Shown: positions 49,611 through 53,803 of the stretch, in pieces
Position numbering within the stretch: the stretch's first letter is position 1
How the letters are laid out: each line of letters starts with the position of its first letter
NCBI RefSeq assembly: GCF_012295525.1
Contig: NZ_CP051167.1
Location: forward strand, 2,852,001 to 2,916,000
Length of the DNA: 64,000 nucleotides
From: Oxynema aestuarii AP17
GTDB lineage: Bacteria > Cyanobacteriota > Cyanobacteriia > Cyanobacteriales > Laspinemataceae
Direction: 5' to 3'
Notes under the pieces: generated by a model
Database searches by the model: none
Told to the model about the DNA's origin: nothing
What the model saw: the letters and a program-made list of their open reading frames with translations, nothing else
Translations under genes and position numbers: made by a program

Positions 49611-50597
49611 ATGACGTTTAAACGGCTATGGCCGATCGCCCTCGCCACGATCGCCGCAGGGGTCGCGATCCTGTTCGGTTCCTACGGTTCCGACGCTCAC
49701 TTCGTTGCAGCGCAAGCGGTACACCCCCCCTATCTCGGCGCGATCGCGACCCGCATCGCTCAAGAAAATGGCGAGGAGGTTACCCCATCTCCAGAAACAG
49801 TTGAGGAGGCGTCACCGACTCCCGAACCTTCCCCGGAAACTCCAGAGGAAGACAACCCCGAAGCTTCCCCGACTCCGAACCCGTCTCCCGCATCGGAGGA
49901 ATCGCCGACGGTAGAGGATTCTCCCTCGCCAACCGCTTCTCCCACTGAGGAACCGGAACCTGAGAGTTCGCCAACTCCGACCGCTTCGCCAACTCCGACC
50001 GAAGAACCGGAAGCTGAGAGTTCGCCAACTCCGACCGCCTCGCCAATTCCGACCGAAGAACCGGAAGCTGAGAGTTCGCCAACTCCGACCGCCTCGCCAA
50101 CTCCGACCGCTTCGCCAACGCCGCAAAGCGCGCCGGAAAATCCAGTATTAATGCTCCCGTTGAACGAGCAAGCTTATCGAGATCGCGAGGAACGCTTTGA
50201 ACTCGGGACGATCGCGGGTTACAAGATCGGCAGTGTCAACGGTTATCCCCTCGTCGAGTCCCCCGATGGCAACCTCGCGTATACGGTCGTCGTCCAGGAG
50301 AAACCTACGGTAGAACCGTTCGATCGCGCTCAATTGGCGGCGATCGCCGTTGAGATGTTCGAGAATGGAGAAGGATTTCAACTCGGACAACTGCTCGATT
50401 CTGCTCCCGAGGAACTGCTCGCCAATTGGACCGGACAATTAACCTTTAACAATCAAACCCAACCGATGCGCGGTTTTATTTTCGCCCGACAAAATTCGCA
50501 AGCGGTTTTCGTGGCTTTGATTTCGGCGACGGAAGGCGGGATGCCCGATCTCGACAGTGTTTTGGCGACGGTGATTCAAACCCTCAAGCCACTTTGA
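49611..50597 (+). CDS. Exported protein with Pro/Thr-rich 18-residue repeats
   Basis: This 328-residue protein has an N-terminal signal peptide or anchor (MTFKRLWPIALATIAAGVAILFGSY). A long acidic Pro/Thr/Ser linker follows (about 55-175), then a compact C-terminal domain of about 150 residues with no motif I recognise. The linker contains three copies of an 18-residue unit (TEEPEAESSPTPTASPTP) at residues 112-165, with repeat identity at the DNA level. The start is backed by GAGGAGG about 10 bases upstream. I do not recognise a function; a tethered periplasmic domain is likely. Confidence 0.8.
   Translation: MTFKRLWPIALATIAAGVAILFGSYGSDAHFVAAQAVHPPYLGAIATRIAQENGEEVTPSPETVEEASPTPEPSPETPEEDNPEASPTPNPSPASEESPTVEDSPSPTASPTEEPEPESSPTPTASPTPTEEPEAESSPTPTASPIPTEEPEAESSPTPTASPTPTASPTPQSAPENPVLMLPLNEQAYRDREERFELGTIAGYKIGSVNGYPLVESPDGNLAYTVVVQEKPTVEPFDRAQLAAIAVEMFENGEGFQLGQLLDSAPEELLANWTGQLTFNNQTQPMRGFIFARQNSQAVFVALISATEGGMPDLDSVLATVIQTLKPL
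49944..50105 (+). repeat. 54-bp tandem repeat, three copies, in coding sequence
   Basis: Three near-identical 54-bp units each encode an 18-residue Pro/Thr/Glu segment in the preceding gene. Units differ by a few bases, so the number of copies may vary among strains. Confidence 0.8.
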
Positions 50598-50740: not shown

Positions 50741-51520
50741 TCAATAATAACCAAGTACGCGGGCGATCGTGTTGGGATCTTCTAAATTTCCCACGATCCG
50801 GCGTACTGGAAGCGGCCATAGTTTAATTAACGTCGGCGTCGCCGAAATTTGCGAAAACTCTGCCTGTTCTGGATGTTTGTGAATGTCGATCACTTTGAGG
50901 GTATAGGGAACGCCGAGGGATTCTTCTAAAACTTGATAGAGGGTGTGCAAGCTTTTTTCCGTGGCGGTGGTACGACCGGACACGAACAAGCGCAATACGT
51001 AACCCTCGCTTCCTTCGGGACGGGTCGGATCGGTCCTGGCGATCGCCGATAGGTCGCTTTCGGGGAATTCCGGCGCCCGGGCGATCGGCGAATCGACCTG
51101 CAAGACTAAATCGTGATTTTCCCAGAGTTGGGGAAATCGTTCCCGATAACTCGCCACCACGATCGGATCGCACAGTTCCTCCGGACAGGATCCTTGAGAC
51201 CAAACCACCTCGTGGGTTTCAAAAATCAGATTCAACAGCGATCGATACCGCCAAACCGGAGGGTAAGCGACTGCAGAACATTTGACAACTTGGGTATTGG
51301 GATCGAGCCATCGGTCGAAAGTTGCAGTATAACAAGGAACTAAAAAATGAGGGGGTTCGACCAGACCCAGCCATTCTTGTAGGGTGGCACATAAATTAAC
51401 GTGCCACTGAGTTTTTTTACTCGGATCGATGCAGTAAACGAGATCTCCTCCTGGAGTAAATAATGCAATTCCTTTAAACAACGGAGGAGTGGGAGAAGTT
51501 TGATAATTCAACAATTCCAA
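50741..51520 (-). CDS. KaiB-fold domain protein with N-terminal extension
   Basis: This 259-residue protein has an N-terminal domain of about 140 residues with many aromatic and Cys residues (FKGIALFTPGGDLVYCIDPSKK at the start). A linker follows, and then a thioredoxin-like KaiB domain at about 173-256: YVLRLFVSG, LKVIDIHKHPEQAEF, and the signature ATPTLIKLWPLPVRRIVGNLEDP. KaiB works in the KaiABC clock as a fold-switching partner of KaiC. The extended, fused form is a KaiB-like paralogue, not the canonical about 100-residue KaiB. The N-terminal domain's role is unknown. There is no kaiA or kaiC nearby. Confidence 0.85.
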   Translation of the reverse strand: MELLNYQTSPTPPLFKGIALFTPGGDLVYCIDPSKKTQWHVNLCATLQEWLGLVEPPHFLVPCYTATFDRWLDPNTQVVKCSAVAYPPVWRYRSLLNLIFETHEVVWSQGSCPEELCDPIVVASYRERFPQLWENHDLVLQVDSPIARAPEFPESDLSAIARTDPTRPEGSEGYVLRLFVSGRTTATEKSLHTLYQVLEESLGVPYTLKVIDIHKHPEQAEFSQISATPTLIKLWPLPVRRIVGNLEDPNTIARVLGYY

Positions 51521-51658
51521 ATGGGGATAAACACTAACGGCGATCGCGCGATCGCGATCGATAAATCACGTTAAAGCAATCAGATAAAAACAGGCAAAAG
51601 TTAACCAAAAATCCGCTCGGTTGCTCCTCGAACTTTTGCCTGCTTCTCGCACTCGGCT

Positions 51659-52954
51659 TTAAATCCGACCGCGCAGCATTTGAGCCATTTCATTCGGGGT
51701 CGGCGATTGTTCGAGAGCGATTTCTTCGGTAATCCGACCTTCTTGATAGAGCTCGTAGAGAGAACGATTCATCGTAATCATGCCTTCATAAGTATCTTTC
51801 AACATGATTTGATGCATATCCTCATACTGCTCTTTCATGATATATTCTTTAATGACATCAGTATTGATCAAAATGTCATGGAAAGCCGCCCGTTTACCAT
51901 CGGTGGTTTTACATAACAACTGAGCAATAATCGCGACGAGAATTTCTGAAATTGACGTGCGGATTGCAGGTTGTTCTTCGGCGGAAAACATATCGAGAAT
52001 CCGGGTCAGGGTTTTAATAGCACTGTTCGTGTGCAAAGTTCCCATCACCAAGTGACCCGTGGAAGCCGCTTTAATAGCAATCCCGACAGTTTCTTTGTCC
52101 CGAATTTCGCCGACGAGAATCATGTCCGGGTCTTGTCGGAGAGCGCCTTTAAGGGCGTTAAAGAATTTCAACGTATGACGACCGACTTCGCGGTGTTTGA
52201 TCAAAGAAACTCGACTTTTATGAACAAATTCGACCGGATCTTCAATGGTGATGATGTGATACGGGAAATTTTTGTTCATGTAGTCGATCATCGCCGCCAT
52301 CGTGGTAGATTTCCCGGATCCGGTCGGCCCCGTGACTAAGATGAGCCCTTTGTGGTAGTGGCAAATCTTTTTAAAAACTTCGGGAAGTTTCAACTGTTCC
52401 ATTGTCAGGATCTCCGCCGCAATCAAGCGCAAAACCATCGCCGGGCCGGCGAGGGAGTCGAAGGCGCTAATCCGGACGCGGACGAAGCCGAAGTCGAAGG
52501 CACCGTCAAAGTCGAGATTTTGTTGAAATTGTTGAATTTCTTCGTTGGACATGCACTCGCGCAGCCAACTCATGAAGGTAGGTAGATCGGTTTTCGGATA
52601 TCCGGCTTCGGCAATGTCGCCGCGTTTGCGGAACCGAGGCAGTTCGTTGACGCCGACGTGGATGTCGGAAATTCCTTCTTCGTGAGCTTGTTTGACCAAG
52701 TCGAGCAGTTTGGGGTGTCCCGGACTCGGACCGCCAGAACTTTTAGGCGCCGAGGAGGCGGGAGGGGCGCTCGGTTGTGGGGCGGGGGGCGCGGGAGGGG
52801 CGCTTTGACGAGCTGCCGGGGGTGGCGGAATGTTTCCCGGCGCTGGGGGTTTGGGAGGGGGTGGAACCGCAGGACGACCCCCGGAATTTCCGGCGTTGGG
52901 ACGTCCCGGTGGGGGTGGCGGGGGTGGAATGGACGGACGTTTGGATTGTGACAT
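51659..52954 (-). CDS. pilT: PilT-like secretion ATPase with Pro-rich N-terminus (PilT2 type)
   Basis: This 431-residue ATPase of the type IV pilus retraction family drives twitching or phototactic motility. After an unusual 80-residue Pro/Ala-rich N-terminal tail comes the PAS-like N-domain. The RecA-type motor then shows Walker A (GPTGSGKST, about 209-217), the Asp box (IITIEDPVEFVH), Walker B (DPDMILVGEIRDKETV) and the His box (GHLVMGTLHTNSA). The presence of a Pro-rich head fits cyanobacterial PilT2 rather than PilT1, which is a family memory, not a proof. It is encoded alone, leftward; the KaiB-like gene is next, 138 bp further on. Confidence 0.9.
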   Translation of the reverse strand: MSQSKRPSIPPPPPPPGRPNAGNSGGRPAVPPPPKPPAPGNIPPPPAARQSAPPAPPAPQPSAPPASSAPKSSGGPSPGHPKLLDLVKQAHEEGISDIHVGVNELPRFRKRGDIAEAGYPKTDLPTFMSWLRECMSNEEIQQFQQNLDFDGAFDFGFVRVRISAFDSLAGPAMVLRLIAAEILTMEQLKLPEVFKKICHYHKGLILVTGPTGSGKSTTMAAMIDYMNKNFPYHIITIEDPVEFVHKSRVSLIKHREVGRHTLKFFNALKGALRQDPDMILVGEIRDKETVGIAIKAASTGHLVMGTLHTNSAIKTLTRILDMFSAEEQPAIRTSISEILVAIIAQLLCKTTDGKRAAFHDILINTDVIKEYIMKEQYEDMHQIMLKDTYEGMITMNRSLYELYQEGRITEEIALEQSPTPNEMAQMLRGRI

Positions 52955-53803
52955 TTGACTTTCTTATGCGATCGGATAGCTATCAGATGCAACCAAATTT
53001 TTAGGGTTGGTTTTTGGGACACGGCGATTTGTGCGATCGCCTGTCGTGCGTTTTTGTGTTTAGACTCTTCCGAGAACCGAACCCGGCATAGCTCTCACGG
53101 AAAATCTTCGCTCTTGTTTGGAAGCCCTGTCGCTTCTTTAGCGCAGGGAGGAAAAACGAAACGGGCGGTTTTAACCGCCGTCCCCCTCGTCGGGGAGCGA
53201 AAAGAGGTGTACTTTTCCCTCGCTCCTGTTAGCCGGAGCCGCCTACCTTGCACGGCGTCATAGCGCCTCGCCAATGTTATCGGTCGGTACTTTCCAAACC
53301 GTACTGTCTTACCCCTCGTACGACGGTTTAACGGTTTGGTTCTAGAGCAGGGGACTGGCGCCGTATCCCAAGGGAGGAGCTTTAACGCTTACCGATAACG
53401 TAGCCCTTGAAGGGCTTAGGCTGGGTAGGGGCGTTTCGCGAAACGCCCCTACTAAAGGAGAGGCACGAAGCCCCGTCTCTTTAGAGCGGGGTGCTGATGT
53501 TTTGCAGTGCCTCAAGCCAAGGGGATCGACCTGCACGAGGATAAGGATTCTCTGATTTGAGTGTTGATGCTCGCCCAAAAAAGAGCGGTTGAAATTGGTT
53601 CGCTCTTTTTCGAGCTCCCACCCTAAATCGTTGAGAGGGGCAAGCCGTCGAGCAGACTGGCTCGATTTGGCTTCTGCGAACATTTTACCCACCTCTATCG
53701 AGACTCTAACTTTTGTCTTGAATTCGATCGCGATCGCCTTTGCCAAGCGACGATCGCCCCTAAAGGCGGTTGAGAGCGGCCAGAACTTGTCTTCCCCTCT
53801 CCT
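52955..53803. other. Decayed IS/repeat region of about 850 bp
   Basis: No intact gene is visible. The left half contains a TnpB-end-like hairpin (GAAGCCCTGTCGC ... GCGCAGGG near 53121-53150) and small inverted repeats such as CGGGCGGTTTTAACCGCCG. The centre (53290-53345) has CCAAACCGT and ACGGTTTGG arms that could fold into a structured RNA. The 118-bp dispersed repeat follows at 53380-53497. The right part is featureless and ends at the GH116 gene. I read this as remains of one or two IS200/IS605-type insertions, possibly with an omega-RNA-like trace. Confidence 0.5.
53380..53497 (+). repeat. 118-bp dispersed repeat, copy 2 (IS200/IS605-end-like)
   Basis: This copy is almost identical to 13981-14099: same start CTTTAACGCTTACCGATAACG, same perfect 28-bp palindrome (53425-53452) and same end hairpin (GAAGCCCCGTCTCTTTAGAGCGGGG followed by TGCTGA). 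Here it sits in a decayed intergenic region, so it is the better reference for the element's left boundary. Confidence 0.85.

Follow-up and report, generated by a model that had tools for sequence, protein, structure and literature searches.

What a protein that ends in a KaiB domain does beside the gene of a type IV pilus motor is the question raised by one locus of Oxynema aestuarii AP17, examined here within a window of 64,000 nucleotides, the whole stretch of DNA that was analyzed. The features on which the argument rests all lie on the minus strand:

50741..51520, minus strand: KaiB-4 (elongated KaiB) gene, 259 aa, TTG start (open reading frame, Pfam, PDB sequence match).
51092..51496, minus strand: N-terminal private domain (residues 9-143), predicted β-β-α-β-β-α...β (AlphaFold2 model, profile searches).
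51026..51082, minus strand: linker, residues 147-165, modelled with low confidence and probably flexible (pLDDT <50; length varies among relatives).
50750..51004, minus strand: KaiB domain (residues 173-257), predicted fold-switched and thioredoxin-like (Pfam, AlphaFold2 model, alignment).
51659..52954, minus strand: pilT2, the immediate upstream neighbor in the same orientation, a type IV pilus ATPase with a proline-rich N-terminus.
51586..51647, minus strand: hairpin and following T run in the pilT2-KaiB-4 gap, a possible terminator or attenuator (RNA fold).

The gene lies in an open frame of 274 aa. In its product the Pfam KaiB model (PF07689) spans residues 177-253 with 84.6 bits (cut-off 27; E 3.9e-24), whereas the Pfam scan gave no match in the N-terminal part. 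Among PDB entries the nearest in sequence is 8ubh (E 2.5e-20), which is the KaiB domain of KaiB-TV4. The first-pass annotation, made from the sequence, had described a KaiB domain fused to a separate, uncharacterized domain. The two-domain architecture was borne out and the N-terminal domain indeed has no credible match in the libraries, but the fusion family itself had already been described. Schmelling et al. (2017) reported that some cyanobacterial KaiBs reach about 250 aa, owing to an N-terminal extension of some 150 conserved residues that has no relatives elsewhere, and found KaiB1 to be the type most similar to these elongated proteins (PMC5520375); Wayment-Steele et al. (2023) named them KaiB-4 and referred to an N-terminal domain of unknown homology and function (PMC10808063). 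The 259-aa protein has the same length, the same extension before a C-terminal KaiB and no difference in kind, and thus belongs to a known family. Although one domain structure has been available since 2023, the available portions of these two accounts (PMC10808063, PMC5520375) assign KaiB-4 no function, and the linkage to pilT2, the loss of K57, G88 and D90 and a confident model of the N-terminal domain are absent from them; the conserved pilT2 pairing and an apparently family-wide lock of the fold are the useful additions made here.

The family is widespread in cyanobacteria. A search with the whole protein against 292 genomes of the phylum gave some match at E 0.001 in 142, among which 80 KaiB-4 carriers were read; of their copies, that of G147 is broken, that of G197 is truncated and that of G062 was matched in two pieces. 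A profile of the N-terminal domain found matches in 157 of 291 genomes from the class, and among the matches listed the open frames measure 240-357 aa, long enough for a KaiB fusion; in one draft (G295) the KaiB-4 copy is split over two frames. Another draft, G306, which has 8% contamination, holds two copies of the N-terminal domain (C170 and C462). A scan of named genomes found 395 stretches that encode a relative, and the best 80 of these 395, which overlap with the genome samples, all bear cyanobacterial names. In a quick tree of KaiB domains KaiB-4 stands apart from 19 short KaiBs with a support of 0.74, a topology compatible with a single origin of KaiB-4.

Structure prediction of both domains had been proposed as a check. 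The AlphaFold2 model of the full-length protein from 82 sequences (pLDDT 86.7, pTM 0.57), which superseded a model from 20 sequences (pLDDT 69.9, pTM 0.48), gives a high-confidence N-terminal domain and a KaiB domain in the switched fold, with the relative placement of the two left undefined. The modelled KaiB domain is closest to KaiC-bound fsKaiB, 5jwr_B (Z 15.3, rmsd 1.6 over 88 residues), followed by 4kun_B, which is Lpp1115 (Z 14.2), and 8ubh (Z 12.4), so that the KaiB domain of the 259-aa protein is predicted to be in the fold-switched, thioredoxin-like state. The KaiB domain of KaiB-TV4 has been found by NMR to be a fold-switched monomer (8ubh; PMC10808063). Because the fold that AlphaFold2 assigns to KaiB varies with the alignment, and KaiB-TV4 was wrongly given the ground state without one (PMC10808063), the modelled switched fold is support and not independent proof.

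The residues that have been proposed to govern fold switching in KaiB, K57, G88 and D90 in the numbering of S. elongatus (PMC5520375), are read as Q, V and G in the window protein. In a comparison between 19 short KaiBs (two of which, L200 and L206, are of a divergent type; SasA was left out) and the 62 of 82 dereplicated KaiB-4 sequences that fitted the search pattern, K57 is K in 17 of the 19 short proteins, and G88 and D90 are G and D in all 19, whereas not one of the 62 KaiB-4 domains keeps any of the three. In the fold-switched KaiB that was crystallized, the last two of these positions had been replaced (G89A and D91R in Thermosynechococcus numbering; PMC6378743). Given the lock demonstrated by NMR in one member and the replacement of K57, G88 and D90 in 62 of 62 sequences, the lock in the switched fold is likely to be family-wide in KaiB-4. 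Fold switching, for which an assay had been suggested, has accordingly probably been lost in this protein, since both the model and the replaced residues point to a KaiB domain held in the switched form. Schmelling et al. described K57, G88 and D90 as weakly conserved among KaiB1 proteins (PMC5520375); the elongated and the short KaiBs examined here separate cleanly at these positions, and the weak conservation may stem from pooling of elongated and short proteins, as the wording of the available part of that report suggests. As a naturally locked KaiB family, KaiB-4 would be useful for the study of fold switching.

The canonical C-terminal tail of KaiB is mostly missing from KaiB-4, and the charged residues R22, K25, E83 and D90, which are implicated in cooperative assembly of the KaiB ring (PMC6769508), are unevenly kept: 49 of the 62 domains have R or K at position 22 and 42 have E or D at position 83, while 17 have K at position 25 and none has D at position 90. 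Ring cooperativity of KaiB-4 is, judging from these substitutions, probably weakened.

The N-terminal domain is real and conserved. Between K16 and L53, 25 of 38 residues are conserved in an alignment of 20 sequences including this protein, 22 of them invariant and three nearly so, and the block means of pLDDT are 83-98 for model residues 1-130 and 72 for residues 131-140. The predicted order of elements is E7-13, E19-24, H31-43, E57-64, E71-77, H79-82, H85-91, two short helices and E131-134 (adding 8 to the model number gives the protein residue number). Comparison of 41 N-terminal domains with the libraries yielded nothing credible, the best values being E 0.017 in Pfam, 0.016 among PDB sequences, 0.015 in PHROGs and, for one member, 0.007 in NCBIfam. 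The Foldseek (PDB, viral) and VIA lists obtained with the full-length model were taken up by thioredoxin-like hits on the KaiB domain, so that the N-terminal domain was barely probed by them. Its strand order is, as a lead only, reminiscent of roadblock/longin domains; when roadblock proteins were sought in 12 relatives, a single match turned up (E 4.1e-5), which is not enough for a profile comparison. A duplicated KaiB can be rejected as its source, because the predicted β-β-α-β-β-α order is unlike the thioredoxin-like order, and a concatenated KaiB had been ruled out earlier as the origin of the extension (PMC5520375). In the genomes searched the domain is seen only together with KaiB, and no credible free-standing case was found: of the candidates, G423 is a 41-position match (E 2.2e-4) antisense to a 306-aa frame and G476 a stretch with four stops antisense to a 257-aa frame, both of which look like chance, and two weaker matches had E values of 0.3 and 0.8.

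The same genome (6.36 Mb) encodes the proteins from which KaiB-4 has to be distinguished. A short KaiB, in a 125-aa frame with its match at 1079722-1079964, lies about 200 bp from the kaiC match at C1:1080163, which is 1.8 Mb away from the KaiB-4 gene. Canonical KaiB1 belongs to the same family and in its fold-switched form shares the topology of the KaiB-4 domain, but it has about 100 aa, keeps K57, G88 and D90 in nearly all short KaiBs examined, has a longer C-terminal tail and is found beside kaiC in this genome; the 259-aa protein has neither that length, nor that location, nor those residues. A SasA-type gene is also present (394-aa frame, KaiB at 23-104, then HisKA and HATPase_c). Like KaiB-4, SasA has a KaiB-like domain of thioredoxin-like fold within a longer protein, one that reads KaiC; in SasA, however, this domain is N-terminal and followed by a histidine kinase, whereas in KaiB-4 it is C-terminal and Pfam finds no kinase domain in the protein.

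The neighboring gene is pilT2 and not pilT1, as its product matches TIGR01420 with 441 bits, has the proline-rich N-terminus that marks PilT2 (PMC12288463) and is encoded outside the pilBTC locus; the PilT1 of the genome lies elsewhere (L158), between PilB and a PilC-type gene (T2SSF, E 6.9e-65). Three PilT-type genes are present in all (in the window and in L158 and L159, G000:C1:6170000-6180000 and 3583000-3594000): PilT1, the window PilT2 and a third, which is also proline-rich and is 47.5% identical to the PilT2 core. The KaiB-4 gene had been placed upstream of pilT2; it does adjoin pilT2, but with pilT2 at 52954..51659 and KaiB-4 at 51520..50741, both on the minus strand, the orientation is the reverse and KaiB-4 is downstream in transcription.

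This arrangement is conserved. When the position of KaiB-4 was compared with that of the best PilT2-type match in the same genome, pilT2 was found directly upstream on the same strand in 71 of 80 KaiB-4 genomes (gap 10-927 bp), elsewhere or on another contig in four and absent in five. In a further 45 (48 genomes minus G295, G326 and G372, which had no coordinates; G424 lay outside the PilT2 sample) it was the same-strand upstream neighbor in 36 (gap 19-434 bp), elsewhere in eight and absent in one, some of the cases counted as elsewhere being different contigs of drafts. Pooled, pilT2 is the same-strand upstream neighbor in 107 of 125 KaiB-4 genomes, a count to which no probability is attached because the samples overlap and are related by descent. 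Among the best 80 of the 395 named loci, 72 contain a PilT2 family member, which in 68 is the immediate upstream gene, whereas the neighbor family that ranks next occurs in 28 of the 80, and directly downstream the most frequent family reaches 18 of 79. Conservation of the neighborhood, the lack of which had been named as evidence against a functional connection, therefore holds for pilT2 and not for the other window neighbors, which recur in 0 to 13 of these best 80 loci. The relative with 70 of 76 residues identical to KaiB-TV4 (L118, G247) has pilT2 19 bp upstream. Among 17 genomes that have PilT2 but lack KaiB-4, the genes that follow pilT2 vary between lineages, and none of the frames listed near pilT2 matches the N-terminal domain better than E 0.86. 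In seven of the best 80 of 395 named loci (L041, L053, L061, L063, L067, L074 and L099) KaiB-4 lies away from pilT2 and overlaps or just precedes a same-strand radical-SAM gene, which in L061 matches CofH/MqnC.

The pairing points to a possible, testable connection of the daily clock with movement on surfaces. A 2024 paper, by its title, reportedly describes a clock-regulated pilus oscillation in S. elongatus. Inverted phototaxis, which is in some doubt, or reduced motility has been reported for mutants of pilT2 (PMC12288463, PMC11407516), and the phototaxis phenotype of PilT2 is an odd one for which there is no accepted explanation (PMC12288463, in its available portions); the pairing gives the function of KaiB-4 and this puzzle one shared testable hypothesis. 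Literature searches, outside which most subscription papers lay, found no earlier report of a pilT2-KaiB linkage; in the available text of a paper on Lyngbya clock genes (PMC7445270) no word starts with "pil", and that of PMC12691664 has nothing on the KaiB-4 gene.

The two genes may share a transcript. The fold of 51555-51665 has a z of -2.85, with 3 of 200 shuffles as stable, and is not listed by a simple terminator scan, in which loops are limited to 8 bases. Terminator-like hairpins occur in 12 of the 68 pilT2-KaiB-4 gaps that were usable among the best 80 of 395 named loci, against 1.4 expected from mononucleotide shuffles. No promoter-like sites were found around the KaiB-4 gene, where 1.8 were expected. 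With such hairpins in this gap and in 12 of 68 named gaps, a single transcript is no more than a candidate.

The reading that we prefer, held tentatively at a probability of about 0.36, is that KaiB-4 serves as an adaptor: its KaiB domain, already switched, would bind KaiC, and its N-terminal domain would pass on the output, often to the pilus motor. The KaiB domain would be held permanently in the shape that is normal KaiB's rare KaiC-binding form, as sequence and model suggest here and NMR for one relative, and would need no slow refolding. It may dock on the CI ring of KaiC once the site is exposed, as the KaiB-like domain of SasA does; the linker and the N-terminal domain would form the output arm, and the PilT2 retraction motor would be the most frequent output, whether KaiB-4 touches the motor or the two are matched in expression. 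PilT2 is put forward as the commonest output because the gene is kept behind pilT2 across much of the cyanobacteria.

The best of the alternatives, possible although doubtful, is that KaiB-4 works directly on the oscillator, as a competitor of KaiB and SasA for KaiC, and that its position behind pilT2 reflects shared expression or history. The lock of the fold would suit such a role, as in SasA-type competitors, and so would the fact that KaiB-4 outlives the loss of PilT2 under purifying selection. It is intact in five of six genomes without PilT2 (G051, G233, G183, G268 and G303) and broken in the sixth (G147). G051, G233 and G303 still have PilT1-type and PilB-type ATPases; G051 and G233 also retain, beside KaiB-4, two genes that flank pilT2 elsewhere, one for a UDP-GlcNAc 2-epimerase and one for a hydrophobic protein of about 124 aa. 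In G303 KaiB-4 is of full length, a single frame covering profile positions 4-246 of 249, and the 3.5 kb inspected there contain no PilT. In G183, G268 and G147 no PilT/PilB-like ATPase was detected at E 1e-20, and the KaiB-4 genes of G183 and G268 differ by a dN of 0.028 and a dS of 0.201, indicative of purifying selection. Because KaiB-4 is intact in these two genomes at a low dN/dS, some function of KaiB-4 is independent of the pilus. In addition, some genomes that lack KaiB-4 keep the upstream-side neighbors of pilT2 (the hydrophobic protein of 123-135 aa and a WecB-like enzyme), and the pilT2 locus thus appears to be old and fairly stable. An oscillator competitor would, however, leave the pairing to history although other neighbor families are far less conserved than PilT2 (at most 28 of the best 80 of 395 loci), and KaiB-4 is missing from 64 of 135 KaiC-bearing genomes, so that clocks do not need it.

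Somewhat less probable is a dedicated PilT2 accessory that works without KaiC, with the KaiB domain or the N-terminal domain binding the PilT2 hexamer and tuning retraction. The gene pair itself and the disappearance of K57, G88 and D90 of the clock KaiB speak for such a role, and PilT2 is known to take partners, as a phosphomimic of Rre6 binds it in a two-hybrid assay (PMC7656254). At an E of 1e-80 for the PilT2-type match, KaiB-4 occurs in 70 of 131 genomes with PilT2 and in 2 of 14 without (Fisher p 0.009, kinship ignored). KaiB-4 is missing from the other 61 of the 131, and PilT2 therefore does not need it. The intact copies in G183 and G268, where no PilT/PilB-like ATPase was detected at E 1e-20, and those in G051, G233 and G303, which lack PilT2, argue against a dedicated accessory. 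The motility link that had been raised from adjacency is thus worth taking seriously given the conserved pairing, but a role confined to the pilus is weakened by these genomes. A further difficulty for the accessory is that KaiB-4 is nested within KaiC-bearing genomes: it occurs in 71 of 135 genomes with KaiC and in 1 of 10 without (Fisher p 0.017, kinship ignored), and 71 of the 72 KaiB-4 genomes of the class sample have KaiC. The exception, G039, has KaiB-4 and pilT2, and neither KaiC nor a short KaiB was found in it; it is a draft of 220 contigs, 99% complete, and an assembly gap may account for both.

The same co-occurrence with KaiC and the adjacency of pilT2 weigh on an improbable alternative, namely a KaiB-like protein with no clock or pilus role, comparable to Lpp1115 of Legionella, which was crystallized in the switched fold and tied to stress responses (PMC10808063). 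The high rank of 4kun among the structural matches would agree with it; elongated KaiBs, however, are nearest to KaiB1, whereas the Legionella crystals are classed as KaiB2 (PMC5520375). A redox enzyme of the thioredoxin type, to which the thioredoxin-like fold of the modelled C-terminal domain and the redox signaling suggested earlier might point, is rejected as extremely improbable, for CXXC is absent from the window protein and from all 82 relatives.

The adaptor reading thus draws on the pairing with pilT2 (107/125), the replacement of K57, G88 and D90, the match to 5jwr_B, the co-occurrence with KaiC, the nearness to KaiB1 and a precedent in archaea, where KaiC-family ATPases, some with KaiB-like partners elsewhere, are found in pilus loci and the KaiC-like protein FlaH binds FlaI, the ATPase of the motor (PMC4858521). 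Those archaeal pilus and archaellum loci likewise tie Kai-family proteins to motors of the type IV pilus type, but there the KaiC-like ATPase is in the locus, whereas here the KaiB-type protein is, with KaiC elsewhere. Weighing against an adaptor are the putative nature of its contacts with KaiC and PilT2, the retention of KaiB-4 without PilT2, its absence from 61 of 131 genomes with PilT2, the weakened ring residues, the alignment dependence of the modelled fold, the KaiC-less G039 and the hairpin between the genes. The more specific proposal of a physical bridge, with the locked KaiB domain on the KaiC ring and the N-terminal domain on the PilT2 ring, two hexameric ATPases, is unlikely. If true, clock control of pilus retraction and phototaxis would be direct and would bypass transcription in many cyanobacteria.

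Several further features lie near the locus. A HEARO RNA (RF02033; 112.3 bits, E 4.8e-23) is located just before pilT2 at 53257-53494 on the minus strand. RNAs of this type accompany IscB/IsrB-type HNH genes; between pilT2 and the GH116 gene there is no frame of more than 134 aa, and this RNA is probably an orphan copy. On the opposite, plus strand the KaiB-4 gene adjoins 49611-50597, which encodes a protein of 328 aa that begins like an exported protein and contains a tandem repeat of proline, threonine, serine and glutamate; relatives of this protein are found in 7 of the best 80 of 395 loci. Finally, the hydrophobic protein of about 123-135 aa, which has no Pfam match, lies near pilT2 with or without KaiB-4 and stays where pilT2 is missing (L162, L165, L176, L177, L136, L137, L141 and L142), with the UDP-GlcNAc 2-epimerase alongside in several of these loci.
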